DNA from: Daphnia pulex | Taxonomy: Eukaryota; Arthropoda; Branchiopoda; Diplostraca; Daphniidae | Assembly (NCBI RefSeq): GCF_021134715.1 | Contig: NC_060023.1 | Span: 9,796,001-9,860,000, forward strand | DNA: 64,000 nucleotides | Direction of reading: 5' to 3' | Part shown: positions 2,714-21,386 of the stretch, one piece after another | Layout of the letters: every line of letters begins with the position of its first letter | How positions within the stretch are numbered: the first letter of the stretch is position 1 | The notes under the pieces: generated by a model | Seen by the model: the letters and a program-made list of their open reading frames with translations, nothing else | Database searches by the model: none | Told to the model about the DNA's origin: nothing | Translations under genes and position numbers: made by a program

Positions 2714-3762
2714 TTGATCGGTACTTGAACCGTTTACAAACCTATTTGTTTCAAATAATTTAGCAATGTGTGAGCTTCAATAGATTGTGCAATTGGGCAC
2801 ACTGTTTTCGAACTTTCAACTTTTTACTAAGCTGCGGGTATTTTATATGATACCCGGTTTAAAAATTTGTCGGGTATCAATTGAATACCTCTTTCCACAT
2901 CTTCAGAAAATGTAAGTTATTTCGGTTTCGTAATTTGTGAGTTTTGTTGGTGTAATAATTTTACTATATAAGTACATAATTGCGTTGTTATTTAAAGTTT
3001 AAGTTGGAATTTCCTAGTCCGCGTGTTTGTCCCGATGGCATGGGTGGACACGATTTTATTTCGCGGATTTCCATCAATTTTTAGTTTACGTTAGATCACT
3101 ATTAGGGTTATATAGCCTAGACTTTGAACGACCGCTACTTTGTTCGAAAAATTCTTTGCATATAGAATCTGCATAGGCCTATTAAAGTAATTGATGGCAT
3201 TGACTAATGTATTAAGGAAAGTCTTTGATAATCTTTTCCAGCAAACTGTTTCGATCATTGAAGATTATAGGCAGACGTCACGCATAAGAATTTTCTGCAT
3301 TCCCACATTATTATATAATTTGGTTTCTTATTCTCCACACTGAGGAATTCGGACAAAAAACGAGCGATTGGCTCTGTTGTGCCAAGAAATAGTCCACAAA
3401 TTTAGGGTTCTACATGTCCTTCTGGAACACGAATTTTTCAATGTACTTCAACAGTATAAAAAGTTAATTACTTTGAAAATTTAAAAATGAAAAAGAACTG
3501 GTAAATGAGAGCTGCATGACCGGCATGAGAAAATCCGTTAACAAGGAGAAACGGAAAGCTCTATCATGGGCAGAGAGAGGTTCTCACTCACTATTATATT
3601 AAATTTCTCATAAGGTATCCGTTCATTTTACTAAAAGATCGAGTTTACAATCGTGCCACCAAACCGGTGTGTAAATGAACGTAATATAAATAAAATCACA
3701 AACGAAGGACCGACAAATCAGGACAAACGTTTGGAAATCGAAACTCAACTAAGTTACGGCTA
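2714..3762. other. Spacer between Vav-like gene and palindrome
   Basis: AT-rich intergenic DNA. I see no exon with splice signals and no recognisable repeat here. It ends where the left arm of the palindrome begins. Confidence 0.5.
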
Positions 3763-3849
3763 TTATACGAAGGCCAAATGGGCGCTTCCTATAATCCAAT
3801 TTGCAGATTTGAAAAAAGTTTAAAATTTTCTTAACTCTGTTTATCTTTC

Positions 3850-5440
3850 TTCCCACTAGATGGTGTAGAGTGTCATCATGGCCTAGCAGACAAAATGTTT
3901 TCTATTGTCTTTTGTATTGTATTATTTGTTGTCAGTCTTTTCGTGCTCATCGGCTCAATGTGATTTTCAGTTTTGCTATTTTATACCTGTTCACACGCAC
4001 GATACTACTACTTTCTATGATACTACTACCTTCATCTCTTCCTCTGTGGACTATCAGACAGAGAGTGTCAGCTGTTTTCAACACCCTCTTTGCCTCGTGT
4101 ACAACTGCCGGTGGTCGCTGTGAAAAACACAGGAGAATGTGGAGGGCTCTGGTCGAACGGGGACTTGGAAGGCGCATGATCAGAGTAAAACTTTTGGAGG
4201 GTCATGGGTCTAAACTAGAAGCCTACCTTGCACTCTTCTTTCTTCTTCACTGACCAGGTAATCTCCACATAGGTATCCTTGCACATGAACCATAGGATCT
4301 TTTCTGAATCTTGCAATTTTGGTGGCGTACCTTGCAGGAGCATGTTTGTTGTTGTGGCTGTTTTTACGTTGGTTTAGAAGGCAACCCAGCTAAGAGTTGG
4401 GTAGAGTTTTATTTCTTACAGGTAAATTTGTGCAAATTTGTAAATAACATAGATAATATCCTTGTCCCATTGCTGCTTAGAGTTTCGTGACATGAAGAGT
4501 GTGAAGTGAATAATCTTCAATGTGTATGTACATAGATCTGTACATGACACATGAGTACAGATATATAATAATAGGAAACAATTTATTTTTTTAAATCCAT
4601 GTAGCAATAATCATTTTATTCTTTCCAACAGATGTGGCAAACACGAATGTTATGAATTTCGTTTTTGGGGTCAATGGATTTGGCGCTGGTTGCTGTTACT
4701 GGCCTTTTGCGACGTCTTGATATCAGTTTGGAATAATAGCTCTGGACTCTGGGGAATCCTCACTCATACTCAGGTAACCTTGAAGTCAACATATGTGAAG
4801 AGTTTTCGATTCGTTGTAATTTTTGCATGCAAGTCAACCTGCAGGCAGGTCGGCCAGTTTGTCCAGACAGGATGTCCTTCTCGCTTGAAGGTCAAGAGAA
4901 ACATTACGTAAAACTGGCATGCGGTGGTGTAGAGGTCGGGTGAGAATGACACGTGTTTCATCATTATCAAGAAGGTAAAATAGCCGCAAGGGTAAGCTAT
5001 TTGGTATTCACTTTGAAGTCTTTGATATTGGTTTTTGTAGACCCATCCCCCAACCTGCAGAAGGAAAGGCCAGTTTGCATTTTCTTCAATCGAAGGTCAC
5101 GGAGATCATTAGGTAAAACGTTTCATGCAGTGATGTAGAGGTTGGGTTAGCACGGGAAGTTTTGCATCATTATCAAGAAAGTAAAATAACCGCAAGGCTT
5201 AAGAGGAGGGGTGAGAAAAAGTCGTATAAAAGGCGAGAGAAAAAGTTGACAGGGATCACTCGAGCGAGTATCTCCGACACGGTAAGAGTTGCAGTGCACT
5301 ATTGTTATCCACTGCATTCTTCATCGTATTGTCAATTCTCAGTCATGGGTAAATATTCTGCTGTATATGGAGTTATGTATCGATTTCTATTTTTGTTTCT
5401 CTTTGTTAACATGCTAGATATTTTTGTATATTAATTGTTT
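3850..5440 (+). other. Exon-like modules in left arm, no intact gene
   Basis: The stretch has several short open segments ending in plausible donors. One, around 4630-4770, encodes a Cys/Trp-rich hydrophobic peptide (CGKHECYEFRFWGQWIWRW then LLLLAFCDVL) followed by a CAG|GTAACC donor. Two tandem, diverged units follow (about 4930-4995 and 5135-5200), each with the phrase TCATTATCAAGAA and a GCCGCAAGG or ACCGCAAGG donor-like end. A signal-peptide-like start near 3895 is cut by a stop after about 22 codons. I do not recognise the family. It could be a decayed multi-exon gene or lineage-specific exons. Confidence 0.35.
4270..4530 (+). repeat. Four-copy module, outer left copy
   Basis: Contains GGATCTTTTCTGAATCTTGC, then GGCAACCCAGCT, AGAGTTTT, and GAAGAGTGTGAAGTG in that order. 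The same order recurs, diverged, at about 10840-11070 (+) and inverted at about 9985-10212 (-) and 16525-16785 (-). Each palindrome arm is therefore itself bracketed by inverted copies of this module. Confidence 0.75.
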
Positions 5441-5695
5441 AATTATTAATTGTTAAGTCGTACATAAGGTCAAAGTAAAGGCTAAAGAAATCAGTCGGAG
5501 TGAGCATTTCCGATATAGTAAAAGCAAATCTGCAGTGCACCATTTGTCACTAACTGTCGAATTCTTCGTCGAAATGCTAGTTTAAATCATGGTTAAACAT
5601 TTTTACATGTAGTTGTGAATCAACTTCTTATTTGTTAACATGCCAGTTATAATTTCATATTAATGTTTAAATTGTTATGTGTATAGTAAATTAAG

Positions 5696-6024
5696 GCGTC
5701 GTGCTGCACTTGTGTATTGTATCGTTGATGGCTGGTTTCAGCCATGATGTACCGATGTCTCCTGGGTATGGCGGATAACAAATCGCGACGCCGCCGTTTT
5801 ACTACACAACACACGACACGACCAGTTGCTACGCCGAGGCCCCCACGTACTGCACTAAGGCTCCAGATTATTGTTCCACAAATTATGCTGCCCTGAGCTA
5901 CTACACCGAATCCCCGCTATATTACTCTTCCCCGAGCTACACTACCAAGGGTCGATTACTGCACCGATGCTCCGAAGTACTACAACACCAAGGCAATGGA
6001 GTACTGTACAACTACATATCATGG
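5696..6024 (+). pseudogene. Tyr-rich repeat pseudogene 1, left arm
   Basis: Reading across stops gives a relic signal peptide (VLHLCIVSLMAG), SPGYGG, then repeats such as CYAEAPTYCTKAPDYC and YYTESPLYYSSPSYTTKG. The start codon is lost (AAGGCG where related copies have ATGGCG). A stop directly follows SPGYGG, and a frameshift falls near 5955, after which the YYN-TKAMEY frame resumes in another register. The ancestral product was probably a small secreted Tyr/Pro/Thr-rich structural protein. I do not know a named family. Confidence 0.6.
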
Positions 6025-6163
6025 GTAAATATTCCGTTACATAGAGTTTTAAATCAATTGCTATTATCTAAATTATTTACTCTAATTGTTAAAAAAGGGA
6101 GAAAAGGCGAAAGAGATCAGTCGAGTGGTCATCTCCGACACGGCAACAGCAACTGCAGTGCCA

Positions 6164-6376
6164 AGGCTCAGTAATACACCTCTACTTATGTTGCTCCGAT
6201 ACTCTACACCAAAGTGCCTGAGTGCTGTACCGAGGGCACTAATTTTTACATCACCAAGGCACCGGAGTACTACACTGAAACATACGCTGCTCCAGCTTAT
6301 TACACCGAGGCTCCCCAATACTACACCACCAAGGCACTGGAGTACTACACCACTACATATCATGGTAAATATTCTG
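6164..6376 (+). pseudogene. Tyr-rich repeat pseudogene 2, left arm
   Basis: This copy keeps the longest clean repeat run, with YITKAPEYYTETYAAP followed by AYYTEAPQYYTTKALEYY in one frame. It lacks the signal-peptide exon seen in copies 1, 3 and 4 and has a stop near 6171 at the 5' side. A donor-like CATG|GTAAATATT closes the run, a junction also found near 6024 and 7014. It may be a surviving internal exon rather than a whole gene. Confidence 0.5.
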
Positions 6377-6663
6377 TTATGTGGAGTTTTAATATGGCAT
6401 CCACTAAATGTACAAATTATTTATTGTCTAGTCGTATGAAAGGAGAGAAAAGGTGAAAGAATTCAGCAGACGAGTGAGCATCTCCGTTACAGCAACAGGA
6501 ACTGCCGTGCACTTAGTCATCAACTTCATTCTTCGTCCTGTTACAAGTTTTAAATAAAGGTAAAAATTTTTCCGTATAGTTGTGAATCAACTCTACTTTT
6601 TTCTATTTGTTAATATACCAGAACCATATTTGAATATCAAAATTTATTAATTGTCAAGTAAAC

Positions 6664-7015
6664 AATGGCGTCGTGCTGCTGTTGGGTGTTGTATCGTTGA
6701 TGGCTGGGTCGACCACTGGTGTATTGTCTCCTGGGTATGGCGGGTACCAAAGCACAACACTGTCTTACTATTAAGCATCAACTTCCGCTGCTCCATCTTA
6801 CTACACTGAGGCTCTCAAGTGCTACTCCATCAAGGCTCCAGATTGTTACACCACAGCTCATGTTGCCTCAAGCTACTACGCTGAATGTCCGAAGTATTTG
6901 TTCCCCAGCTACACTACCAAATGGTCGAGTACCACGTCGAGGCTCCCAAGTTCTACATCACTAAGGCACCGGAGTACAAAAACGGTCGAATACTACACAG
7001 AAGCAGTCATGGGTA
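6664..7015 (+). pseudogene. Tyr-rich repeat pseudogene 3, left arm
   Basis: Begins ATGGCGTCGTGCTGC. The hydrophobic frame VLLLGVVSLMAGSTTG is out of register with that ATG by one base, which implies a single-base deletion in the signal peptide. It continues SPGYGGYQSTTLSYY and stops, then YYTEALKCYSIKAPDCY resumes after the stop. A further frameshift lies in the TTKW region near 6920. Confidence 0.6.
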
Positions 7016-7099
7016 AATATTGAATCTCTATTCTTTTTTCTAATTGCCAATATGCCAGTTATTATTTTATATTAATGTTCAAATTATTTTTTTAGTACA

Positions 7100-7834
7100 C
7101 TATGGCGTTGTGCCATTGTGAATGTTGCAACGGTGATGGTTGGTTCGACCACTGGTGTGCCGATTTCTCCTGGGTATGGTGGGCGTGAACATTCCGCAAC
7201 AGCCGGTTACTACACTGAGGTCCTCCAAGTGCTACACCACAAAGCCTCCAAAACGTTACAACACGACTTATGCTGCTCCGATGTTACTACGCAGAAGCTC
7301 CGAAGTATTTTCCTTCCCCGAGCTTCACTACCCTCACCACGCCGCTTACTGAACAACAACGTCAACATCTTCTTGCTATACGAAGGTCTTCAGTACTACG
7401 CCACAAAGGCTCCTGAGTATTAAACTTCAACCTACGATCTTCCAGCTAGCTATAAAAATTCTTCCATGTACTAATATGTTCCCAGCTACTACACCGAGGA
7501 TTGTCACACCACTGAAGCGTCCAAGTACTGCACTACAACCTTCGTTGCTCCAGCTTACACCACGAAGGGAGCCGAGTACTACACCACGAAGGGAGCCGAT
7601 AATTCGTACCACGTTGAACCGGATTACTAAACCGATGATCCAGTTTACTACACTACAACCTGCGCTTTCTCCCAGATACTACACCACCAAGGAAACCGAG
7701 TTACATCACTACTTACGCTACTACCACCTACTGCACCGAAGTATTACTCTGCCCCGAGTTATTACACCACTAAGGCAGCCGACTATTACACCATAAACTA
7801 CGCTTCCGCAACTTACTACATGGAGCTTCCTTAA
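7100..7834 (+). pseudogene. Tyr-rich repeat pseudogene 4, left arm (longest)
   Basis: Starts with an ATGGCGTTGTGCC leader. The frame VMVGSTTGVPISPGYGG is preserved, followed by YYTEV. The reading frame then shifts several times: KCYTTKPPKRYNTTYAAP, YYATKAPEY and later YYTTK-like stretches lie in three different frames with intervening stops. Some 730 bp of repeat are recognisable, making this the most extensive member. Multiple lesions make a functional product unlikely. Confidence 0.6.
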
Positions 7835-8268
7835 TGCCAGAGCCGACTATTTGAGTATTATTATTTGTCGGTTGTCTTCATGATCATTGGTCACTGGGAG
7901 TTAATTGTTGATCTCAAATGAGTAAATAAAAATTTTAATGCGGGTAATTCTTTTGCAAGACTTTGGTAGTAACTTCAAGCCTGTGTTGTTTCATGTCTCA
8001 GGGGTGATTACTGCTATAGTCACTCTACATACGGACATGTTCTAGCGGTTTAACGATGATATTTCAAGGGTAAGTTACGAACAAACTTGTAACTGTTGGA
8101 TCTGTTAAAGGGAAGTGGCTGATCTTGGTATAAATGAAAGACTTTGAAGTTGAGATAATTTCTAAACAAGACTTGATATTAACTAAAAGACAATAAACAA
8201 AAAACTTATAAAAAGAATTGTGTTATATTGTCCCACCTCCACCCACAATTCCACCACATTTTACAGTC

Positions 8269-8296
8269 ACATACACATATACATACATACATACAC
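8269..8296. repeat. ACAT/ACAC microsatellite
   Basis: Short run of ACATACAC/ATAC units beside the piggyBac-type MITE, mirrored near 12756-12783. Confidence 0.7.
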
Positions 8297-8305
8297 TTGA
8301 GTTAA

Positions 8306-8568
8306 CCCGTTGGCTGCCACGCCATACAACCCGTAGGTTGCTTTCTACTAATCTACGTGCCACGTCTGAAGGATCCATGACCAAGTGGGACTTGCCATTG
8401 CTGACAAGTCCGTGCTGACAAGGGGAGGACTAAGGTGCATTGCCTTTTAACAGGCTTGCCTTGCGGCAAAGTTTGGGCTTGGCGACTCCCCGGCCCCGCG
8501 GCTTTTAAACCACGAGACCGAACAGCGCGGCCCGTGCAGTGGAGAACAAAGGTGTGGCAGCCAACGGG
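8306..8568. mobile_element. piggyBac-type MITE, left arm
   Basis: A 263-bp element with 15-bp perfect terminal inverted repeats, CCCGTTGGCTGCCAC and GTGGCAGCCAACGGG, flanked on both sides by TTAA (8302-8305 and 8569-8572). TTAA target duplication and CCC...GGG ends are hallmarks of the piggyBac superfamily. The interior is GC-rich for this region and has no transposase reading frame, so it is non-autonomous. Confidence 0.85.
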
Positions 8569-8916
8569 TTAACTAACACTAACACAATAATACCAACAAT
8601 ACGATGATCCACGTTGATGACGAGTCTCGGTGTCGGTCGCGATTTCACCGAGTTTCGTTCGCACCAGGAGCAGGGGCAACGTCCGACGGAGACCGGTGAC
8701 GATTGTTAAAGATGGGAAAATCCATCTTCTCGACGTCTCCTCTGCATTACCTGAATCAAGACAAACAATTCTTATTAAGTGACATGCCAATAACAGTTAC
8801 ATAATAGTCACATAATACATATGGGATCATTGATCTGTTTTTTTTTTGCTCAAAACTTCAAAGGTGCGCTTTAAATTGCTTAAAATCTACCTAACAATAT
8901 TGAGAACTGTACACAT

Positions 8917-9306
8917 AACAAAGCTCACTTGCTAGTCTAAAAAAAAAAATTCCGGAAGTAGACCGGAAGTAACCATAGCGCCTCAACCATTGAGCTGTCA
9001 TCAAATTAAACCACATATTCTTGATCTCCATGAAATTTGGGGTCGATTAGGTGTGATTTAAACGAAATCCAAAATTTGGCCAAAATCGAGAATTTTCCTG
9101 AACTATAGTTCAGGAAAATTTTCGAAACCGGAAGTACGAAAACGTAAAAAAGATAACATGAACTTTACTTCAAATTTTACGAGGATCACGAATATGTGGT
9201 TCTTTTGCTCCTCAAATGAATATTTACTGAACTACAGACTGAAATGAGCAAACCGGAAGTAGAAAAAAAAAGCGAAATATCGAAAATTTAACAAGTGAGC
9301 TTTGTT
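8917..9306. mobile_element. Second MITE-like element with CCGGAAGT motifs, left arm
   Basis: A 390-bp element with 15-bp terminal inverted repeats, AACAAAGCTCACTTG and CAAGTGAGCTTTGTT. It has no coding capacity. The interior has about five copies of CCGGAAGT (near 8952, 8963, 9127, 9253 and similar sites) and a 30-bp perfect palindrome at its middle. I could not see a clear target-site duplication, so the superfamily is unassigned. Confidence 0.65.
9091..9120. repeat. 30-bp perfect palindrome inside MITE
   Basis: The sequence AATTTTCCTGAACTA is followed at once by its exact reverse complement. The mirror copy is at 11932-11961. Confidence 0.9.
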
Positions 9307-9984
9307 GCTGGCATAGTAATCGTCAGTTATCACTAAATATTTCAAAAAAATAACTGCCGATAAATGTTAAAAGACATGTGCAAAGTTTCTGAAACTGACT
9401 GTTTTGACAGCTGCAAATTTTCAAAAAGCCATCTAGCGTTGGAAAAAAGAAACTTCAATGTTAAACTTCGTTGGCGCGTAAGAAAGGCCTGATTTTGGAA
9501 ACTACTACACAGACAGAGTCTAACACTCTAACTCAACTAGACGATTGGTAGATAACCTACGAAAATAAGTCAAATGTTGGGTACCTGGGCATAATCCCAT
9601 GGTGAATGATGACAGGTGTGTCACAGCGGGCGGAAGCGAACACTGAAGTGATTTAATTCGCCAATGAAGCACAAGAAGCACCGTACGTGGTGAAGATAAG
9701 GACCCGAACGTTGGTAGAAGTCCTTCTTCTGTCATGGACAAAAACCAGCGTTGGCTCAGGACTCACGATTCCATGAAGAAACTGCGTTGTAGATTGAAAC
9801 TGGCGGCCGACTGGCGATCTCAGAGGACGTTTTGTAAAAATGAGTTGGGAATTAAAAGGAAGCTTAAACAAAATTAACTCATAGTAGCATGGTAAAAGGT
9901 GATAATGATGTTTACCTTTATCATTTGGGTGACGAATTCAGTAAGGCATTTGACTTTCATCAAGCAGATCTGGTAAATGTACTA

Positions 9985-10212
9985 AATACACTTCACACTC
10001 TTCATGTACATTCACTGAAACTGGAACTGTAAATAGCAATTGGATAAGGAAAATTTTCTATATTATTTACAAATTTACATATGAAAAACAAAACTCTACC
10101 TATTTCTCAGCTGGGTTGCCTTCTGAACGGCTGTAGAAACAGTCATACACTCGACAAACATTCTGACACAGGTTACACTTGCAAGATTCAGAAAAGATCC
10201 ATGGTCCATGCA
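9985..10212 (-). repeat. Four-copy module, inner left copy
   Basis: Inverted, diverged relative of 4270-4530, recognisable by CACTTCACACTCTTCAT, AGCTGGGTTGCC and GCAAGATTCAGAAAAGATCC in reverse order. Confidence 0.75.
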
Positions 10213-10432
10213 CAAGAACTTTTGTCTAATTCCACTGTATGTAGGCTTCAAATATGAGTTTCAGGCTTTTGACACTCATAACGATCTAATAGGATGGAAA
10301 GTGACTGAGCACTAAGTCAACTTAATTGTTGGAATGACGGACTGACTTTCTAGAATTTAAAGAGATGGATGTAATATTTCAAAATAAAGAAACTAGGTCA
10401 AGATAAACTTACACAAACGAAGTTCAATTGAG

Positions 10433-10608
10433 AATTCACAGAAAAATAAGTAAATAGCAAGTTAGCAACAATTTGTTTCGCCATGTTTCATGATGCAGGC
10501 TGCTGTATGACAAAATCAATTGAAGACAGTGGCATCTAGCGGTCAGTAAATAAGGGTTGATGACAGAAGAACTCCACCGTTAATAGAACCCTTTTGTGAT
10601 TCCGAATA
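10433..10608. other. Unique spacer at the centre of the palindrome
   Basis: About 176 bp without an inverted partner, bounded by AGTTCAATTGAG on the left and CTCAATTGAACT on the right. It has no recognisable gene or motif. It would form the loop of a cruciform or hairpin. Confidence 0.85.
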
Positions 10609-10839
10609 CTCAATTGAACTTCGTTTGTAGGTTTATGGTGTAGGTTTATCTTGACCTAGTTTCTTTATTTTGAAATATTACATCCGTCTCTTTAAATTCT
10701 AGAAAGTCAGTCCGTCATTCCAACAATTAAGTTGACTTAGTGCTCAGTCACTTTCCATCCTATTAGATCGTTATGAGTGTCAAAAGCCTGAAACTCATAT
10801 TTGAAGCCTACATACAGTGGAATTAGACAAAAGTTCTTG

Positions 10840-11068
10840 TGCATGGACCATGGATCTTTTCTGAATCTTGCAAGTGTAACCTGTGTCAGAATGTTTGTCG
10901 AGTGTATGACTGTTTCTACAGCCGTTCAGAAGGCAACCCAGCTGAGAAATAGGTAGAGTTTTGTTTTTCATATGTAAATTTGTAAATAATATAGAAAATT
11001 TTCCTTATCCAATTGCTATTTACAGTTCCAGTTTCAGTGAATGTACATGAAGAGTGTGAAGTGTATTT
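10840..11068 (+). repeat. Four-copy module, inner right copy
   Basis: Mirror partner of 9985-10212, in the same orientation as 4270-4530 and clearly diverged from it. Confidence 0.75.
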
Positions 11069-11745
11069 AGTACATTTACCAGATCTGCTTGATGAAAGTC
11101 AAATGCCTTACTGAATTCGTCACCCAAATGATAAAGGTAAACATCATTATCACCTTTTACCATGCTACTATGAGTTAATTTTGTTTAAGCTTCCTTTTAA
11201 TTCCCAACTCATTTTTACAAAACGTCCTCTGAGATCGCCAGTCGGCCGCCAGTTTCAATCTACAACGCAGTTTCTTCATGGAATCGTGAGTCCTGAGCCA
11301 ACGCTGGTTTTTGTCCATGACAGAAGAAGGACTTCTACCAACGTTCGGGTCCTTATCTTCACCACGTACGGTGCTTCTTGTGCTTCATTGGCGAATTAAA
11401 TCACTTCAGTGTTCGCTTCCGCCCGCTGTGACACACCTGTCATCATTCACCATGGGATTATGCCCAGGTACCCAACATTTGACTTATTTTCGTAGGTTAT
11501 CTACCAATCGTCTAGTTGAGTTAGAGTGTTAGACTCTGTCTGTGTAGTAGTTTCCAAAATCAGGCCTTTCTTACGCGCCAACGAAGTTTAACATTGAAGT
11601 TTCTTTTTTCCAACGCTAGATGGCTTTTTGAAAATTTGCAGCTGTCAAAACAGTCAGTTTCAGAAACTTTGCACATGTCTTTTAACATTTATCGGCAGTT
11701 ATTTTTTTGAAATATTTAGTGATAACTGACGATTACTATGCCAGC

Positions 11746-12135
11746 AACAAAGCTCACTTGTTAAATTTTCGATATTTCGCTTTTTTTTTCTACTTCCGGT
11801 TTGCTCATTTCAGTCTGTAGTTCAGTAAATATTCATTTGAGGAGCAAAAGAACCACATATTCGTGATCCTCGTAAAATTTGAAGTAAAGTTCATGTTATC
11901 TTTTTTACGTTTTCGTACTTCCGGTTTCGAAAATTTTCCTGAACTATAGTTCAGGAAAATTCTCGATTTTGGCCAAATTTTGGATTTCGTTTAAATCACA
12001 CCTAATCGACCCCAAATTTCATGGAGATCAAGAATATGTGGTTTAATTTGATGACAGCTCAATGGTTGAGGCGCTATGGTTACTTCCGGTCTACTTCCGG
12101 AATTTTTTTTTTTAGACTAGCAAGTGAGCTTTGTT
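11746..12135. mobile_element. Second MITE-like element, right arm
   Basis: Mirror copy of 8917-9306, with the same terminal repeats and internal palindrome. Confidence 0.65.
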
Positions 12136-12483
12136 ATGTGTACAGTTCTCAATATTGTTAGGTAGATTTTAAGCAATTTAAAGCGCACCTTTGAAGTTTT
12201 GAGCAAAAAAAAAACAGATCAATGATCCCATATGTATTATGTGACTATTATGTAACTGTTATTGGCATGTCACTTAATAAGAATTGTTTGTCTTGATTCA
12301 GGTAATGCAGAGGAGACGTCGAGAAGATGGATTTTCCCATCTTTAACAATCGTCACCGGTCTCCGTCGGACGTTGCCCCTGCTCCTGGTGCGAACGAAAC
12401 TCGGTGAAATCGCGACCGACACCGAGACTCGTCATCAACGTGGATCATCGTATTGTTGGTATTATTGTGTTAGTGTTAGTTAA

Positions 12484-12746
12484 CCCGTTGGCTGCCACAC
12501 CTTTGTTCTCCACTGCACGGGCCGCGCTGTTCGGTCTCGTGGTTTAAAAGCCGCGGGGCCGGGGAGTCGCCAAGCCCAAACTTTGCCGCAAGGCAAGCCT
12601 GTTAAAAGGCAATGCACCTTAGTCCTCCCCTTGTCAGCACGGACTTGTCAGCAATGGCAAGTCCCACTTGGTCATGGATCCTTCAGACGTGGCACGTAGA
12701 TTAGTAGAAAGCAACCTACGGGTTGTATGGCGTGGCAGCCAACGGG
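12484..12746. mobile_element. piggyBac-type MITE, right arm
   Basis: Mirror copy of the element at 8306-8568, with the same TTAA flanks and terminal repeats. Its presence at the exact mirror site means it was inserted before the palindrome formed. Confidence 0.85.
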
Positions 12747-13217
12747 TTAACTCAAGTGTATGTATGTATGTATATGTGTATGTGACTGTAAAATGTGGTG
12801 GAATTGTGGGTGGAGGTGGGACAATATAACACAATTCTTTTTATAAGTTTTTTGTTTATTGTCTTTTAGTTAATATCAAGTCTTGTTTAGAAATTATCTC
12901 AACTTCAAAGTCTTTCATTTATACCAAGATCAGCCACTTCCCTTTAACAGATCCAACAGTTACAAGTTTGTTCGTAACTTACCCTTGAAATATCATCGTT
13001 AAACCGCTAGAACATGTCCGTATGTAGAGTGACTATAGCAGTAATCACCCCTGAGACATGAAACAACACAGGCTTGAAGTTACTACCAAAGTCTTGCAAA
13101 AGAATTACCCGCATTAAAATTTTTATTTACTCATTTGAGATCAACAATTAACTCCCAGTGACCAATGATCATGAAGACAACCGACAAATAATAATACTCA
13201 AATAGTCGGCTCTGGCA

Positions 13218-13952
13218 TTAAGGAAGCTCCATGTAGTAAGTTGCGGAAGCGTAGTTTATGGTGTAATAGTCGGCTGCCTTAGTGGTGTAATAACTCGGGG
13301 CAGAGTAATACTTCGGTGCAGTAGGTGGTAGTAGCGTAAGTAGTGATGTAACTCGGTTTCCTTGGTGGTGTAGTATCTGGGAGAAAGCGCAGGTTGTAGT
13401 GTAGTAAACTGGATCATCGGTTTAGTAATCCGGTTCAACGTGGTACGAATTATCGGCTCCCTTCGTGGTGTAGTACTCGGCTCCCTTCGTGGTGTAAGCT
13501 GGAGCAACGAAGGTTGTAGTGCAGTACTTGGACGCTTCAGTGGTGTGACAATCCTCGGTGTAGTAGCTGGGAACATATTAGTACATGGAAGAATTTTTAT
13601 AGCTAGCTGGAAGATCGTAGGTTGAAGTTTAATACTCAGGAGCCTTTGTGGCGTAGTACTGAAGACCTTCGTATAGCAAGAAGATGTTGACGTTGTTGTT
13701 CAGTAAGCGGCGTGGTGAGGGTAGTGAAGCTCGGGGAAGGAAAATACTTCGGAGCTTCTGCGTAGTAACATCGGAGCAGCATAAGTCGTGTTGTAACGTT
13801 TTGGAGGCTTTGTGGTGTAGCACTTGGAGGACCTCAGTGTAGTAACCGGCTGTTGCGGAATGTTCACGCCCACCATACCCAGGAGAAATCGGCACACCAG
13901 TGGTCGAACCAACCATCACCGTTGCAACATTCACAATGGCACAACGCCATAG
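13218..13952 (-). pseudogene. Tyr-rich repeat pseudogene 4', right arm
   Basis: Mirror copy of 7100-7834. The peptides readable in it are identical to those of the left copy, so the lesions predate the duplication or were homogenised. Confidence 0.58.
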
Positions 13953-14036
13953 TGTACTAAAAAAATAATTTGAACATTAATATAAAATAATAACTGGCAT
14001 ATTGGCAATTAGAAAAAAGAATAGAGATTCAATATT

Positions 14037-14388
14037 TACCCATGACTGCTTCTGTGTAGTATTCGACCGTTTTTGTACTCCGGTGCCTTAGTGATGTAGA
14101 ACTTGGGAGCCTCGACGTGGTACTCGACCATTTGGTAGTGTAGCTGGGGAACAAATACTTCGGACATTCAGCGTAGTAGCTTGAGGCAACATGAGCTGTG
14201 GTGTAACAATCTGGAGCCTTGATGGAGTAGCACTTGAGAGCCTCAGTGTAGTAAGATGGAGCAGCGGAAGTTGATGCTTAATAGTAAGACAGTGTTGTGC
14301 TTTGGTACCCGCCATACCCAGGAGACAATACACCAGTGGTCGACCCAGCCATCAACGATACAACACCCAACAGCAGCACGACGCCATT
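14037..14388 (-). pseudogene. Tyr-rich repeat pseudogene 3', right arm
   Basis: Mirror copy of 6664-7015 with the same signal-peptide deletion and internal stop. Confidence 0.58.
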
Positions 14389-14675
14389 GTTTACTTGACA
14401 ATTAATAAATTTTGATATTCAAATATGGTTCTGGTATATTAACAAATAGAAAAAAGTAGAGTTGATTCACAACTATACGGAAAAATTTTTACCTTTATTT
14501 AAAACTTGTAACAGGACGAAGAATGAAGTTGATGACTAAGTGCACGGCAGTTCCTGTTGCTGTAACGGAGATGCTCACTCGTCTGCTGAATTCTTTCACC
14601 TTTTCTCTCCTTTCATACGACTAGACAATAAATAATTTGTACATTTAGTGGATGCCATATTAAAACTCCACATAA

Positions 14676-14888
14676 CAGAATATTTACCATGATATGTAGT
14701 GGTGTAGTACTCCAGTGCCTTGGTGGTGTAGTATTGGGGAGCCTCGGTGTAATAAGCTGGAGCAGCGTATGTTTCAGTGTAGTACTCCGGTGCCTTGGTG
14801 ATGTAAAAATTAGTGCCCTCGGTACAGCACTCAGGCACTTTGGTGTAGAGTATCGGAGCAACATAAGTAGAGGTGTATTACTGAGCCT
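14676..14888 (-). pseudogene. Tyr-rich repeat pseudogene 2', right arm
   Basis: Mirror copy of 6164-6376, with an identical readable peptide. Confidence 0.5.
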
Positions 14889-15027
14889 TGGCACTGCAGT
14901 TGCTGTTGCCGTGTCGGAGATGACCACTCGACTGATCTCTTTCGCCTTTTCTCCCTTTTTTAACAATTAGAGTAAATAATTTAGATAATAGCAATTGATT
15001 TAAAACTCTATGTAACGGAATATTTAC

Positions 15028-15356
15028 CCATGATATGTAGTTGTACAGTACTCCATTGCCTTGGTGTTGTAGTACTTCGGAGCATCGGTGCAGTAATCGA
15101 CCCTTGGTAGTGTAGCTCGGGGAAGAGTAATATAGCGGGGATTCGGTGTAGTAGCTCAGGGCAGCATAATTTGTGGAACAATAATCTGGAGCCTTAGTGC
15201 AGTACGTGGGGGCCTCGGCGTAGCAACTGGTCGTGTCGTGTGTTGTGTAGTAAAACGGCGGCGTCGCGATTTGTTATCCGCCATACCCAGGAGACATCGG
15301 TACATCATGGCTGAAACCAGCCATCAACGATACAATACACAAGTGCAGCACGACGC
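15028..15356 (-). pseudogene. Tyr-rich repeat pseudogene 1', right arm
   Basis: Mirror copy of 5696-6024 with the same lost start codon, stop and frameshift. Confidence 0.58.
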
Positions 15357-16524
15357 CTTAATTTACTATACACATAACAATTTAAACATTAATATGAAAT
15401 TATAACTGGCATGTTAACAAATAAGAAGTTGATTCACAACTACATGTAAAAATGTTTAACCATGATTTAAACTAGCATTTCGACGAAGAATTCGACAGTT
15501 AGTGACAAATGGTGCACTGCAGATTTGCTTTTACTATATCGGAAATGCTCACTCCGACTGATTTCTTTAGCCTTTACTTTGACCTTATGTACGACTTAAC
15601 AATTAATAATTAAACAATTAATATACAAAAATATCTAGCATGTTAACAAAGAGAAACAAAAATAGAAATCGATACATAACTCCATATACAGCAGAATATT
15701 TACCCATGACTGAGAATTGACAATACGATGAAGAATGCAGTGGATAACAATAGTGCACTGCAACTCTTACCGTGTCGGAGATACTCGCTCGACTGATCCC
15801 TGTCAACTTTTTCTCTCGCCTTTTATACGACTTTTTCTCACCCCTCCTCTTAAGCCTTGCGGTTATTTTACTTTCTTGATAATGATGCAAAACGTCCCGT
15901 GCTAACCCAACCTCTACATCACTGCATGAAACGTTTTACCTAATGATCTCCGTGACCTTCGATTGAAGAAAATGCAAACTGGCCTTTCCTTCTGCAGGTT
16001 GGGGGATGGGTCTACAAAAACCAATATCAAAGACTTCAAAGTGAATACCAAATAGCTTACCCTTGCGGCTATTTTACCTTCTTGATAATGACGAAACACG
16101 TGTCATTCTCACCCAACCTCTACACCACCGCATGCCAGTTTTACGTAATGTTTCTCTTGACCTTCAAGCGAGAAGGACATCCTGTCTGGACAAACTGGCC
16201 GACCTGCCTGCAGGTTGACTTGCATGCAAAAATTACAACGAATCGAAAACTCCTCACATATGTTGACTTCAAGGTTACCTGAGTATGAGTGAGGATTCCC
16301 CAGAGTCCAGAGCTATTATTCCAAACTGATATCAAGACGTCGCAAAAGGCCAGTAACAGCAACCAGCGCCAAATCCATTGACCCCAAAAACGAAATTCAT
16401 AACATTCGTGTTTGCCACATCTGTTGGAAAGAATAAAATGATTATTGCTACATGGATTTAAAAAAATAAATTGTTTCCTATTATTATATATCTGTACTCA
16501 TGTGTCATGTACAGATCTATGTAC

Positions 16525-16785
16525 ATACACATTGAAGATTATTCACTTCACACTCTTCATGTCACGAAACTCTAAGCAGCAATGGGACAAGGATATTATC
16601 TATGTTATTTACAAATTTGCACAAATTTACCTGTAAGAAATAAAACTCTACCCAACTCTTAGCTGGGTTGCCTTCTAAACCAACGTAAAAACAGCCACAA
16701 CAACAAACATGCTCCTGCAAGGTACGCCACCAAAATTGCAAGATTCAGAAAAGATCCTATGGTTCATGTGCAAGGATACCTATGT
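16525..16785 (-). repeat. Four-copy module, outer right copy
   Basis: Mirror partner of 4270-4530 at the outer part of the right arm. Confidence 0.75.
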
Positions 16786-17320
16786 GGAGATTACCTGGTC
16801 AGTGAAGAAGAAACAAGAGTGCAAGGCCGCTTTGCTGGAGAGCGATTAGTCATAGTAGGCTTCTAGTTTAGACCCATGACCCTCCAAAAGTTTTACTCTG
16901 ATCATGCGCCTTCCAAGTCCCCGTTCGACCAGAGCCCTCCTCATTCTCCTGTTTTTCACAGCGACCACCGGCGGTCGTACACGAGGCAAAGAGGGTGTTG
17001 AAAACAGCTGACACTCTCTGTCTGATTGATAGTCCACAGAGGAAGAGATGAAGGTATTAGTATCATAGAAAGTAGTAGTATCGTGCGTGTGAACAGGTAT
17101 AAAATAGCAAAACTGAAAATCACATTGAGCCGATGAGCATGAAAAGACTGACAACAAATAATACAATACAAAAGACAATAGAAAACATTTTGTCTGCTAG
17201 GCCATGATGACACTCTACACCATCTAGTGGAAGAAAGATAAACAGAGTTAAGAACATTTTAAACTTTTTTCAAATCTGCAAATTGGATTATAGGAAGCGC
17301 CCATTTGGCCGTCGTATAAT

Positions 17321-17704
17321 CTCCTTTTAAAATTCATTATAATTGTTATAAATTACACTAGATAGATTTTTTAGGTGTTGAAAAATAAGCACAAATGCAG
17401 CCATATTAATCATTAACACTAATGATTCAGCAGTGGAAGTGTTGAACAGACCCCTTTCCTATGAATGAAGTAATAGATGAAGGAATATTAGAATTGAACA
17501 CAGAGAACAAAGATATTTAATTGAAAACACTCAGCTGATACGAATTTTTATTTCAGTTGCTTGTATTTATTGCCATCACCCAACATTTGAAACCTTCGAA
17601 GCTGTTTAACAATTAACTTTATAAATTCATTTTTTTTTTGCCAATGATTCATACAATAATGTTGAAATCTTAGTGGTAGATGAAAAGCTTGATTATGTAA
17701 TTAA
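17321..17704. other. Spacer between palindrome and peroxidase 3' end
   Basis: AT-rich, probably including the peroxidase 3' untranslated region. No other feature seen. Confidence 0.4.
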
Positions 17705-20700
17705 TTAGAATAAAACTTCGTTTTTCCACATTGTTAAGTTCAAACTTGGGATAGTGGTTCCAGTGCAAAGGACTTTGGCATTCCTGTATCACAATGGAGA
17801 CAAATAAAGGTTGTAAGTGTTTTACATAATTTAAAATAAATAATCATAAAATTGATATATTAAAGTAGCGGAATAATAGCTATAACATCTCCAGTTCCAT
17901 CTACTCAAATAATTTTTCTAAATGTAAATACTTACGTCGCGCTGACTGGAATGAAAGCTTTGGGCTGAACGCTCAAAACTGTGCCGTCACTGTTGTCGCA
18001 AAAAATGCGTGCCAAACCTTATTTATCGAACAAAATTCAGTTGCATCAAATAGATTCGCATTAAGTTAATATACAGCACAAGTTTGAAACTTACTAGCTT
18101 TTCTGATTTCGGATAACTGGGCTAAAGTAACCAAAGAAAATAGTTGTTTAAAAAGACGAGTTTTTTAAATAATAGTTTTTATGGTCATCTTTAATACCTG
18201 AGGAAAATGAGTGAGCTTGACCACCAAGTTCGTAGAAATAGCGATCGGCATACTTAATCTGATTGAATTGTTCACCCAGTAAACAGTTTAAAGTTGGTCC
18301 GGCGATGGAACCACCGAGAGGCGCTTCCAAAAGTCCAGCTACGTAGACATCAATATCATCAACAGAGTTATACACCTGCTGTAGAAGAGGAACCAACTAC
18401 AAAGACAAAAAATATGCATTATTTTTCAAGAATTCAATCTGTTTAGGCAGAATTATAGTAGAACTCTATAGAAAAATGAAAAAAAGAAACTACATCTGGC
18501 TTGATAACTGGATTAGTTGTCGATGGAACGCTCAAATCAGCGAAACTGGTGGCTTTCGTAAAACCGCAAAATTGGCGATAGGTATTGTAGCTTGGAATAC
18601 CATGATCGCGGCCGCGTTGGATGTTTAAAGCAACAACATCAAACCGGATGTTTCTCGCTCTATAGAAATATTAGTTAATGGCGTCTGGGTAAAATTATGT
18701 TAAAGAAAATGATATATTTTAAAGCTATTTTAATTGTACCTAAAGAGCCGATTCCACAACGAGTCGTCCACATTTTGGTCCACTGATTGAGAAGGTTCGG
18801 TGAGAAGACCCCGAATAACGGCATCCAAATATGTTTTGTCATTGACGAGCATTGCCGCATTGTTAAAGGTATCGCTCATGGTATAAGAACTCGTCAGCAA
18901 TGTGCCGTTTTCAGCAAAAAGTCTACATTGAATAAATGTCAATGATTTCTTTCTTAAAAAGGTTTTAAATTGTTTTACTGGACTGATCCTTGAACGAGAG
19001 AATGACCCATACGGAAAGCAGCAGTGGCAAATTCGTTACTGATGGGTCCGGTAGATACTCTGCTGGTGTTGGCATTCGTAAGAAAACCGGATGCCAGTGG
19101 AGCAAGACTGTACTTGGTAATGGTTCCCGGACCTTAACATTGACATTGACCATAAACATCACAATGAATTTCCCTGATTGCAAATATAAACCGAAATTAA
19201 ACTCACTCAACAAAGCAGTGATGAATTCTTTGTAGGTAATATGTTGCATTTCTGCGATGACGATTCGTCTGGCCTCCTGAAACAGGATTGTGTCATTCCA
19301 TGTTGGATTAACAACAGCCAATGCCTTGGCGATTCGGTTGTGTTCACGAAGCCAGATGGTATGCATGACAGTTAGTTGTGGCTGCTCAGTAGCTCTCGAA
19401 TCACCTACTCATACAAACGTATAGTATTTAAACAGATATACAAATTGATGGATAATATTTACCTGCCAAAAAACAAGCACCAGTGGTGCAGGGAGACGTC
19501 AATGGAAGTAAATCTCGACTGGTTGTTGCACTAATTGCGTCTTTGGTTGTCAATAAAAGACCGCCGGTGAAACTACGGAGTGAAGCGGCAGTTGCCGGAG
19601 TCGATCCGTAAACCGTGGAGGCATCCATCCAGTGCGTGTTTTGATTGAGCTAATTGTATAGAAATAGTTAAGCATTCATTGTCTGAAAATATAAACGCAT
19701 TTACTTGGTCGGCGTATCCAATGCTGCAATCCAGTCGCGGACCGGAGATGGAGCGAACAAAGTTCATGCAGGTTGTGATGGACGGTGAGTTGACGTTCCA
19801 GAATCTATCGTTGGTTGGTACGGAAACGGGTAAACAAGCCGGATGAAGTTGGGAAGCGTTCAACGTGCCACCGGTACTGGAACAGCAGCTGATGTCCGAT
19901 CCGTTTGCTGTTAAGTAATTATTAGTATGAAACTAAAAGAAATTGTTCAAAGTGAAATAATTACTAAAGGTGAACTGAGTCGTTGATTCAAAATCGTGGT
20001 TAATAAACTGTCCAAACTGCATCAGTGCTAATGTAGTGGTACTGAGGGGTCTGTCAGCACCTCCGAAGATGGTGGTGCTTATAAGACGTGCACTGTTCAA
20101 CTCTGAACCGTTACTAGACACACGGGGAGATTGAATACCTGGCATTCCATTATAAAGTAAGAAGTTCATTTTTGAATTTTAAATGTCTGCGTAATTTGTT
20201 AGTATTATTGAGACTTGCCATCTGCGTATGCGGGTGAACTCAAACGGCGATAGTCAGTGAAAGATTTGCCAAGGTTTGTGAGTGTCAAGCTGTTGCAAGA
20301 TCCATCAAACGTACGGTATTTGGAAACTGTGGGGCACGTTGTCACACCAAGGCAAGTATTATTGGTGCTGGAGGGACTGGTGGTAGTGCTTCCGATTGTA
20401 GTTGACGTCCTTGTAGAAGTTGTTGCTTTAGTTGTTGTTGTGGAAAATGCTTTAGGAGTTGTTGTGGAAGTTGCTTTAGGAGTTGTTGTGGATGTTGCTT
20501 TAGTTGTTGTTGTGGATGTTGCTTTAGTTGTTTTTGTGGATGTTGTTTTAGGAGTTGTTGTGGTTGTTGGTTTAGTAGTTTTAGTGGTTGGTTTAGTTGT
20601 TGTTGTGGTTGGTTTAGTTGTTGTTGTGGTTGGTTTAGTTGTTTTTGTGGTTGGTTTAGTTGTTGTTGAGGTGGGTTTAGTGGTTGTTGTGGTTGGTTTA

Positions 20701-21386
20701 GTAGTTTTTGTGGTTGGTTTGGGAGTGGTTGTTGTTGTTCTAGGAGGAGTTGTTGTTGGTTTAGGAGATGTTGGTTTAGGAGAGGTTAGCAATTGTCGCA
20801 GATCTGCTTTGACTTCACCCGTCAAGCTCATCCTATAATTATTTTTTAAACAAAAAATTTACTTCACAATTTGTTTTCTATGAATGAACAATTGGCACTT
20901 ACTGCGCTTTGAGGTATCGAGCGGCTTCCAACATAAGGAGGGATTTGCGTGAGAGTTCCTGGGCTTCTGGCTGAGGTTTCTTGAACTGCGACATGCGGTA
21001 AAAGGGTGAGTCTTCCTTGACGTATTGTCCCTGTGCGAAGAGGTCCTCTTCCAGTTGGGTCAATCGATCGACGTAACTGTAACCAGCTTCTTCGCTCATC
21101 CTCATTTCGTCCTCGGAAAATTCACGAAGAAACGGTTGTTCGTCTTCGGTTATTACAGGTAGAACAAACAATTGACATTACGTTATGTTTCTTCAGTTAA
21201 TATTGAAAACTAAAATGTTAAACGTGTCACTTACCAACTTCATTTTCAACGACACCGGCGATTACCTGAAATGTAAATGAACAAATAATAAAGCAAATTA
21301 ACATTTCAAAAAGATAGCGAGTTGTAAAACCAAAATGAACTTACCGCAACCAGCACAATAGAGAAAGTGATCCAGCGTAGCATCAT
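17705..21386 (-). CDS. Secreted animal haem peroxidase with Thr/Lys/Pro-rich linker
   Basis: Exons, 5' to 3': 21345-21386, 21235-21265, 20903-21143, 20219-20832, 19965-20138, 19705-19907, 19463-19649, 19207-19404, 18979-19132, 18740-18922, 18494-18659, 18198-18396, 18095-18121, 17936-18017, 17705-17783. Phases agree and give 859 codons. The product starts [18 protein letters not shown], a signal peptide. A Glu-rich propeptide and a [12 protein letters not shown] linker (about residues 115-260) follow, then the peroxidase domain. This has YRTFDGSCN, the distal His in [52 protein letters not shown], the proximal His in FRMGHSLV, and [18 protein letters not shown]. It resembles arthropod peroxinectin/chorion-type peroxidases, which oxidise substrates with H2O2 in cuticle, eggshell or immunity. 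The boundary near 19132/19207 is the least certain. Intron 4 has a GC donor. Confidence 0.9.
20410..20780 (-). repeat. Coding minisatellite (Thr-Thr-Thr-Lys-Pro)
   Basis: Imperfect tandem repeats of 12-30 bp within peroxidase exon 4 encode [13 protein letters not shown] and TTTKATST variants. They form a likely O-glycosylated, extended linker. The complementary strand has a long Val-rich reading frame that is only a shadow. Confidence 0.85.

Follow-up and report, generated by a model that had tools for sequence, protein, structure and literature searches.

In most discussions, gene conversion between palindrome arms serves to preserve genes on chromosomes that are unable to recombine. A 64,000-nucleotide stretch of the Daphnia pulex genome (assembly GCF_021134715.1, contig NC_060023.1, positions 9,796,001 to 9,860,000; hereafter the window) contains a 13.6-kb palindrome, two long inverted arms around a short spacer, in which tyrosine (Tyr)-rich coding sequences are broken. 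What is this palindrome, and what has kept its arms alike when the genes that they carry are broken? Here, we describe a computational analysis of the palindrome and of its relatives in the same genome. The window probably holds a degenerate member of a family of tail-to-tail gene pairs that extends across the genome and encodes putatively secreted, Tyr-rich proteins, the arms of each pair being kept alike by conversion.

An inverted duplication with nearly identical arms

Local alignment places the left arm at 3762-10437 and the right arm, on the opposite strand, at 10604-17320, with a central spacer of 166 bp between them (10438-10603); the arms are also recovered by BLAST and by a repeat search, the latter as the inner block described below plus two outer pieces. 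A first-pass annotation of the window had described a palindrome at 3763-17320 with two near-perfect arms of 6.7 kb, and the alignment confirms it: over 6673 paired columns there are 16 mismatches and 5 gap events (99.76% identity), or 6657 identical columns of 6720 when gaps are counted as columns. The annotation gave 176 bp for the spacer, against 166 bp in the alignment.

Divergence between the arms is concentrated at their outer ends. BLAST divides them into an inner block (4226-10414 and 10638-16826) of 6189 bp with 8 mismatches and no gaps (99.87% identity) and an outer block (3762-4226 and 16855-17320) at 97.0% identity, with 7 mismatches and 3 gaps that together span 7 positions. A 29-bp insertion or deletion separates the two blocks, and 8 substitutions together with four of the five gap events are located within the outer 470 bp or at its edge. 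A match of 6 kb at 99.9% identity makes a chance model unnecessary. The left and right flanks of the palindrome differ from each other, and the right one is single copy. The 13.6-kb palindrome is real.

A genome-wide family of inverted pairs

The genome searched comprised 133,188,837 bases in 13 contigs, denoted C1, C7 and so on, the window being C7:9796001-9860000. Each DNA search scored 40 candidates, and the pair counts from these searches are therefore lower bounds. Matches less than 16 kb apart were taken as neighbour pairs and tested against 20000 strand shuffles. With a piece of the outer arm, an exon-like open stretch of 47 codons (4633-4773, mirrored on the minus strand at 16279-16419) and a further inner piece as queries, we found 11, 8 and 11 inverted pairs in the order plus then minus, none in the order minus then plus, and 2, 2 and 1 neighbours in the same direction; as many plus-minus pairs were reached by 0, 3 and 0 of the 20000 shuffles, respectively. 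Combined, the three queries yield at least 20 distinct inverted pairs. The 47-codon stretch alone has 34 matches in the genome, several of which contain stops.

A 52-residue Tyr-rich query gave 156 genome matches, with 150 of 1389 candidates scored. The best 150 of the 156 matches form 107 clusters, and 31 neighbouring clusters lie less than 16 kb apart; 28 of these 31 are convergent (plus then minus), two are divergent and one runs in the same direction, and none of 20000 shuffles reached 28 convergent pairs. Open frames of equal length stand on both sides in 21 of the 28. Nineteen of the convergent pairs were new relative to the 20 found by DNA search, and a manual merge gives 39 candidate inverted pairs in all, a few of them weak, with two very unequal frames (for example at C7:8.55 and C7:10.78 Mb). 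The two divergent pairs, at C7:9300389-9305386 and C1:4613777-4615810 (minus then plus), have long intact Tyr-rich frames of 461 and 399 and of 357 and 357 codons; among the matches listed, they are the only inverted pairs that are exceptions to the convergent rule.

The window palindrome belongs to a single gene family whose inverted pairs number at least in the dozens. Its unit is predicted to be a Tyr-rich gene with a signal-peptide-like start, together with the 3' flank of that gene, facing its own mirror copy tail to tail. The first-pass annotation had treated the palindrome as a lone oddity, a reading excluded by the inverted pairs found in the inner-arm, outer-arm and inner-piece searches. 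In the open-licence literature (subscription papers and preprints lie outside this scope), none of the papers listed in searches that combined Daphnia with tyrosine-rich proteins, palindromes or inverted duplication dealt with this family.

Intact and broken members

The Tyr-rich proteins have, by eye, a hydrophobic start resembling a signal peptide, followed by YYTEAPKYYTTKAPEYYTTTYAAP-like repeats. Pfam returned no family for the 47-codon stretch, for a 131-codon frame of the window or for an intact 311-codon protein from another member, and the structure databank gave no hit for the 311-codon protein. In the window, the Tyr-rich sequences form a degenerate array in each arm, at 5441-7843 on the plus strand and, convergent to it, at 13209-15611 on the minus strand. 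The reading frame switches after SYTTKG at all ten loci covered on both sides of this point; the survey was given 14 loci, two of which had no match and two of which were covered on one side only. A premature stop in SPGYGG* is common to the window, C7:8.55, C7:10.62-10.63 and C7:10.93 Mb; at that position, Y stands in the intact pairs and at C11:3.016 Mb. Judged from these lesions, the Tyr-rich copies in the window are dead, in agreement with the earlier description of a broken, degenerate array. Because the frameshift and the stop are common to several loci, these copies were already dead when they parted.

Other members look intact. At C9:1629777-1638397, arms of 3.9 kb that are 99.1% alike carry two convergent frames of 311 codons, whose translations are identical and which have no difference within the coding frame. 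The arms differ at 40 columns, 38 of them at 1633417 or further towards the centre.

Spacer and fold-back junction

A search with the spacer gave 27 matches in the genome. Six of these are long (79-96% identity), at C7:11.595, C7:11.754, C7:11.859, C7:11.991, C7:12.071 and C11:3.016 Mb, and all six loci are palindromes. The recurrence of the window spacer at six other palindromes argues that the fold-back is older than the dispersal of the family. Five relatives, at C6:2.06, C4:2.51, C9:7.67, C1:4.04 and C9:7.745 Mb, lack an inverted partner within the flanking sequence retrieved. They match the left side of the window through the spacer and depart from it at 10553-10592, beyond which the window continues with sequence from near 10440 in reverse complement, and the fold-back junction is accordingly placed at 10592-10608. 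A 29-base word at this junction is present with 0 or 1 mismatch at four palindromes (the window, C7:11.859, C7:11.595 and C7:11.754 Mb) and, allowing up to 3 mismatches, nowhere else in the genome. C11:3.016 Mb has the word with one extra base, by eye; of the seven spacer-sharing palindromes, all but C7:11.991 and C7:12.071 Mb show it at base level.

Other palindromes of the family have different centres, with spacers of 13-19 bp or of about 0.8 kb; the arms are 19 bases apart at C7:10.62 Mb and 13 at C9:8.48 Mb. The centre of the latter (C9:8482100-8482300) holds a small inverted piece of the end of the unit, by eye as if rearranged. A 271-codon open frame (3191-4003, minus strand, of fetched locus L018) adjoins a partnerless relative and, by eye, resembles the end of a non-long-terminal-repeat retrotransposon protein.

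We infer from these observations that an ancestral gene and its 3' flank were copied back on themselves at a short loop, in a fold-back duplication, and that the resulting inverted pair was then duplicated to other sites in the genome.

Likeness of arms within palindromes

In the outer segment 4590-5200 (21 rows), six palindromes are represented by both of their arms; the two arms are sisters in all six and identical in four of them, with a within-palindrome identity of 99.3-100%. Between different loci, 13 rows with one arm per palindrome (78 comparisons) give 88.4-97.2% identity, with a mean of 92.0%. Loci thus differ by 3-12% where their own arms differ by 0-0.7%. The tree of the inner segment 9690-10250 has 20 rows, four other loci having given no row of sufficient coverage; here the arms are sisters in five of seven palindromes, and identical in three of those five. 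In the spacer-sharing set, the inverted state is older than the divergence of the members from one another; the likeness of the arms must therefore have been established afterwards, and gene conversion is the straightforward interpretation.

This signature is found in dead and intact members alike, which indicates that the process needs no working gene. The contrast drawn by the first-pass annotation, between conversion that protects genes elsewhere and copies that are already broken here, accordingly dissolves. GC-biased substitution was not seen: the core segment has 25 G/C-to-A/T changes against 12 A/T-to-G/C changes, polarised by six partnerless copies only. Its absence is no obstacle, as GC bias is not a necessary feature of gene-converting palindromes. 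At equilibrium, arm divergence equals 2u/c, for mutation rate u and conversion rate c. The D. pulex mutation rate of 2.30-4.53e-9 and the rate of conversion-type loss of heterozygosity of 6.47e-6 per site per generation (PMC12926508) give 0.7-1.4e-3, against 8/6189 = 1.3e-3 in the inner block. To an order of magnitude only, an ordinary conversion rate would therefore suffice. Gene conversion would have kept the arms of each copy alike, acting on both dead and intact pairs; the window copy would have lost its genes and yet gone on being homogenised, with its outer 470 bp lying beyond the well-converted zone.

Several observations weigh against this interpretation. Both arms were read in 15 pairs, of which, over the sequence read, 11 are at least 98.5% alike, two 96.8-97.3% and two 79-86%, and because the pairs were picked from high-scoring matches this sample is tilted towards similar arms. 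Four of the 15 pairs (79-97% alike) therefore lack tight homogenisation, and two of the four have intact frames: C7:2.08 Mb, whose arms have an overall identity of about 85% and carry frames of 548 and 557 codons, and C7:9.31 Mb, with frames of 399 and 437 codons in arms 79-86% alike. In the inner segment, the two palindromes without sister arms are C7:11.859 and C7:11.754 Mb (arm identity 96.8% and 97.3%). Nor is there a simple distance rule, since the best match lies at the centre in the window and on the outside at C9:8.48 and C9:1.63 Mb. Finally, identity between loci can come near that within loci: C7:10.93 Mb, which was left out of the 13-row set, is 98.7% like C7:10.62 Mb, and the pair at C7:11.316 and C7:11.380 Mb, 64 kb apart, is also at 98.7%.

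A mosaic palindrome and probable exchange with others

Along the window palindrome the nearest relative changes, in the manner of a mosaic: the outer and middle parts are nearest to C7:10.62 Mb (about 76-91% per tile), and the core is nearest to C11:3.016 Mb (90-98%), which is identical to the window over 8494-8837 and 9275-9518. A tract of 538 bp at 9022-9559 (mirror 11493-12030) differs at 2 positions from the left arm and at 1 from the right arm of the C7:10.62 Mb palindrome, 818 kb away, and is present in both arms of both palindromes. In the 100-bp bins immediately right of the tract, 53 and 35 columns differ, against 9 and 35 in the bins on its left; the right edge is thus abrupt and the left edge softer, and the sharp edge is one between palindromes. 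A rarer conversion between palindromes would shift such patches around.

These observations allow a broader proposal, which we put forward tentatively and consider rather less than an even prospect. The palindrome itself may be the unit that multiplies and persists, with dozens of live and dead members on many autosomes exchanging sequence within and between members. Conversion of the arms would be mechanical, would proceed at the ordinary cellular rate and would be independent of selection, and dead members would be both witnesses of the process and potential donors.

Alternative explanations

The strongest competitor, though an unlikely one, takes the palindrome in its entirety as a foldback-type mobile element that carries pieces of dead genes, with arms that are alike because the insertions are young. 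Such an element would fit the spread over many contigs, and also an outer limit near 4267 that recurs together with the outer region. The unit has a diverged inverted repeat at its two ends, segment A (4267-4510), which marks the outer limit of homology to many related loci, and its inner inverted copy A' in the same arm (9986-10216, minus strand; about 71% identity). Additionally, the 22-base word AAAACTCATTACTAGATGTCGC from the outer/central region has 228 genome copies at up to 3 mismatches, against 1 for a reversed control. However, no target-site duplication was found at the ends of the window palindrome, the longest common word being 6 bases and off the junction, and a clean transposon with target duplication is rejected on this ground. 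The outer 470 bp (3762-4226 and mirror) are confined to the window locus in both arms, except for 4116-4225, which is a fragment of a short repeat with many copies. End sequences give a mixed picture across loci: several have a common outer limit, the window does not, and others continue outward; the region of the 22-base word runs past the supposed end at several loci, and similarity extends for kilobases at C12 and C3. The excess of between-locus over between-arm differences described above also counts against young insertions.

It is improbable that each palindrome arose by a recent inverted duplication of its own, with conversion unnecessary. Fold-back readily makes inverted duplications in other systems (PMC3907307). 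However, one spacer is held in common by seven palindromes and one junction word by at least four, and these loci are nevertheless about 4-13% apart, which places the inverted state before the arm differences.

About equally doubtful is the idea, which rests on analogy with the hairpin-RNA loci of flies, that the convergent dead pairs are sources of hairpin RNA silencing the live Tyr-rich genes. The pairs are indeed long, near-perfect inverted pseudogene copies in a genome that also has intact family members, but their arms greatly exceed known hairpin-RNA loci in length, and dead-to-live identity in the Tyr-rich part is only about 65-88%.

Least credible is a mirrored join made in assembly, a known problem in that scaffolding errors produce artificial palindromes (PMC7953838), as it is countered by real-looking substitutions and insertions or deletions graded along the arm, by differing flanks with the right one unique, by the same junction recurring at other genome sites and by unequal tandem-repeat lengths between the arms of other members.

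Comparison with known palindromes

Gene conversion within a dispersed family of inverted pairs, the explanation favoured here, has parallels elsewhere. D. pulex is not known to have sex chromosomes. The palindromes of the human Y and X and the willow W (PMC7023750, PMC8981503) resemble those of D. pulex in being large inverted copies with arms more than 99% alike, more than their age predicts, and in their concerted evolution. Those of D. pulex differ in that dozens of small copies (arms of about 4-7 kb) of one gene family are spread over nine or more contigs, that homogenisation extends to dead members, and that palindromes exchange sequence with one another.

Palindromic gene blocks are also found in an arthropod, the springtail Folsomia candida, and in another invertebrate, the rotifer Adineta vaga, but there they are 15 and 19 unrelated collinear blocks (PMC5490193, PMC7953838). 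The authors say that concerted evolution fails to explain the F. candida palindromes, and D. pulex was left out of their palindrome screen for want of annotation. In human fold-back inverted duplications, the inverted copy is likewise joined through a single-copy spacer representing the fold-back loop, but these are one-off, megabase events with spacers of 766-70,466 bp (PMC3907307), whereas the spacer in the window is 166 bp and the structure has been dispersed and kept. The foldback transposon Tetris is similarly dispersed, and its very long inverted repeats flank a short central part; it has target duplications of 8-10 bp and inverted repeats of at most 1,735 bp (PMC4079207), in contrast to the window palindrome, at which no duplication was found and whose 6.7-kb arms hold gene remains.

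In the window, the signature of conversion is thus seen in a palindrome whose genes were dead before the family spread, and live and dead members coexist. They provide a natural control for asking whether the rate of homogenisation differs between them. The family also bears on the way in which an animal genome can retain long palindromes with almost no spacer, such as the two other loci with 13-19 bp.

Other features of the arms and related sequences

The first-pass annotation had reported miniature inverted-repeat transposable elements (MITEs) in the arms, and by eye each arm has two MITE-like stretches with inverted ends. One, at 8302-8572 (mirror 12480-12750), has TTAA flanks and is piggyBac-like by eye; the other is at 8917-9307 (mirror 11745-12135). 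Alignments also pick up an inverted end of the first stretch and an inner inverted match of the second. Rfam had no match, at its gathering threshold, to positions 3400-17700 of the window.

The 110-bp repeat at 4116-4225 has 38 of its 40 scored matches elsewhere, at 87-88% identity; on C3, C4 and C6, several of them form inverted pairs with a spacing of 4-9 kb. The boundary between the 97% and 99.9% zones of the arms falls at the edge of this piece. Outside the palindrome, at 20205-20858, there is a tandem-repeat frame rich in Thr, Lys and Pro with repeats of a 24-bp type.

Among 100 listed copies of the 22-base word, 83 are exact and 9 lie less than 1 kb from the centre of a pair; others occur close to the ends of contigs (C9:51 kb, C12:42 kb, C2:23 kb). 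The segment around the word belongs to some larger repeat or segmental duplication, which occurs near contig ends as well, beside frames resembling a duplicated gene. The segments at C12:37-42 kb, C3:13.267-13.272 Mb and C9:52-60 kb have kilobases in common at 83-96% identity, with similar open frames beside the repeat, and by the look of it these near-end segments represent a subtelomeric segmental duplication.

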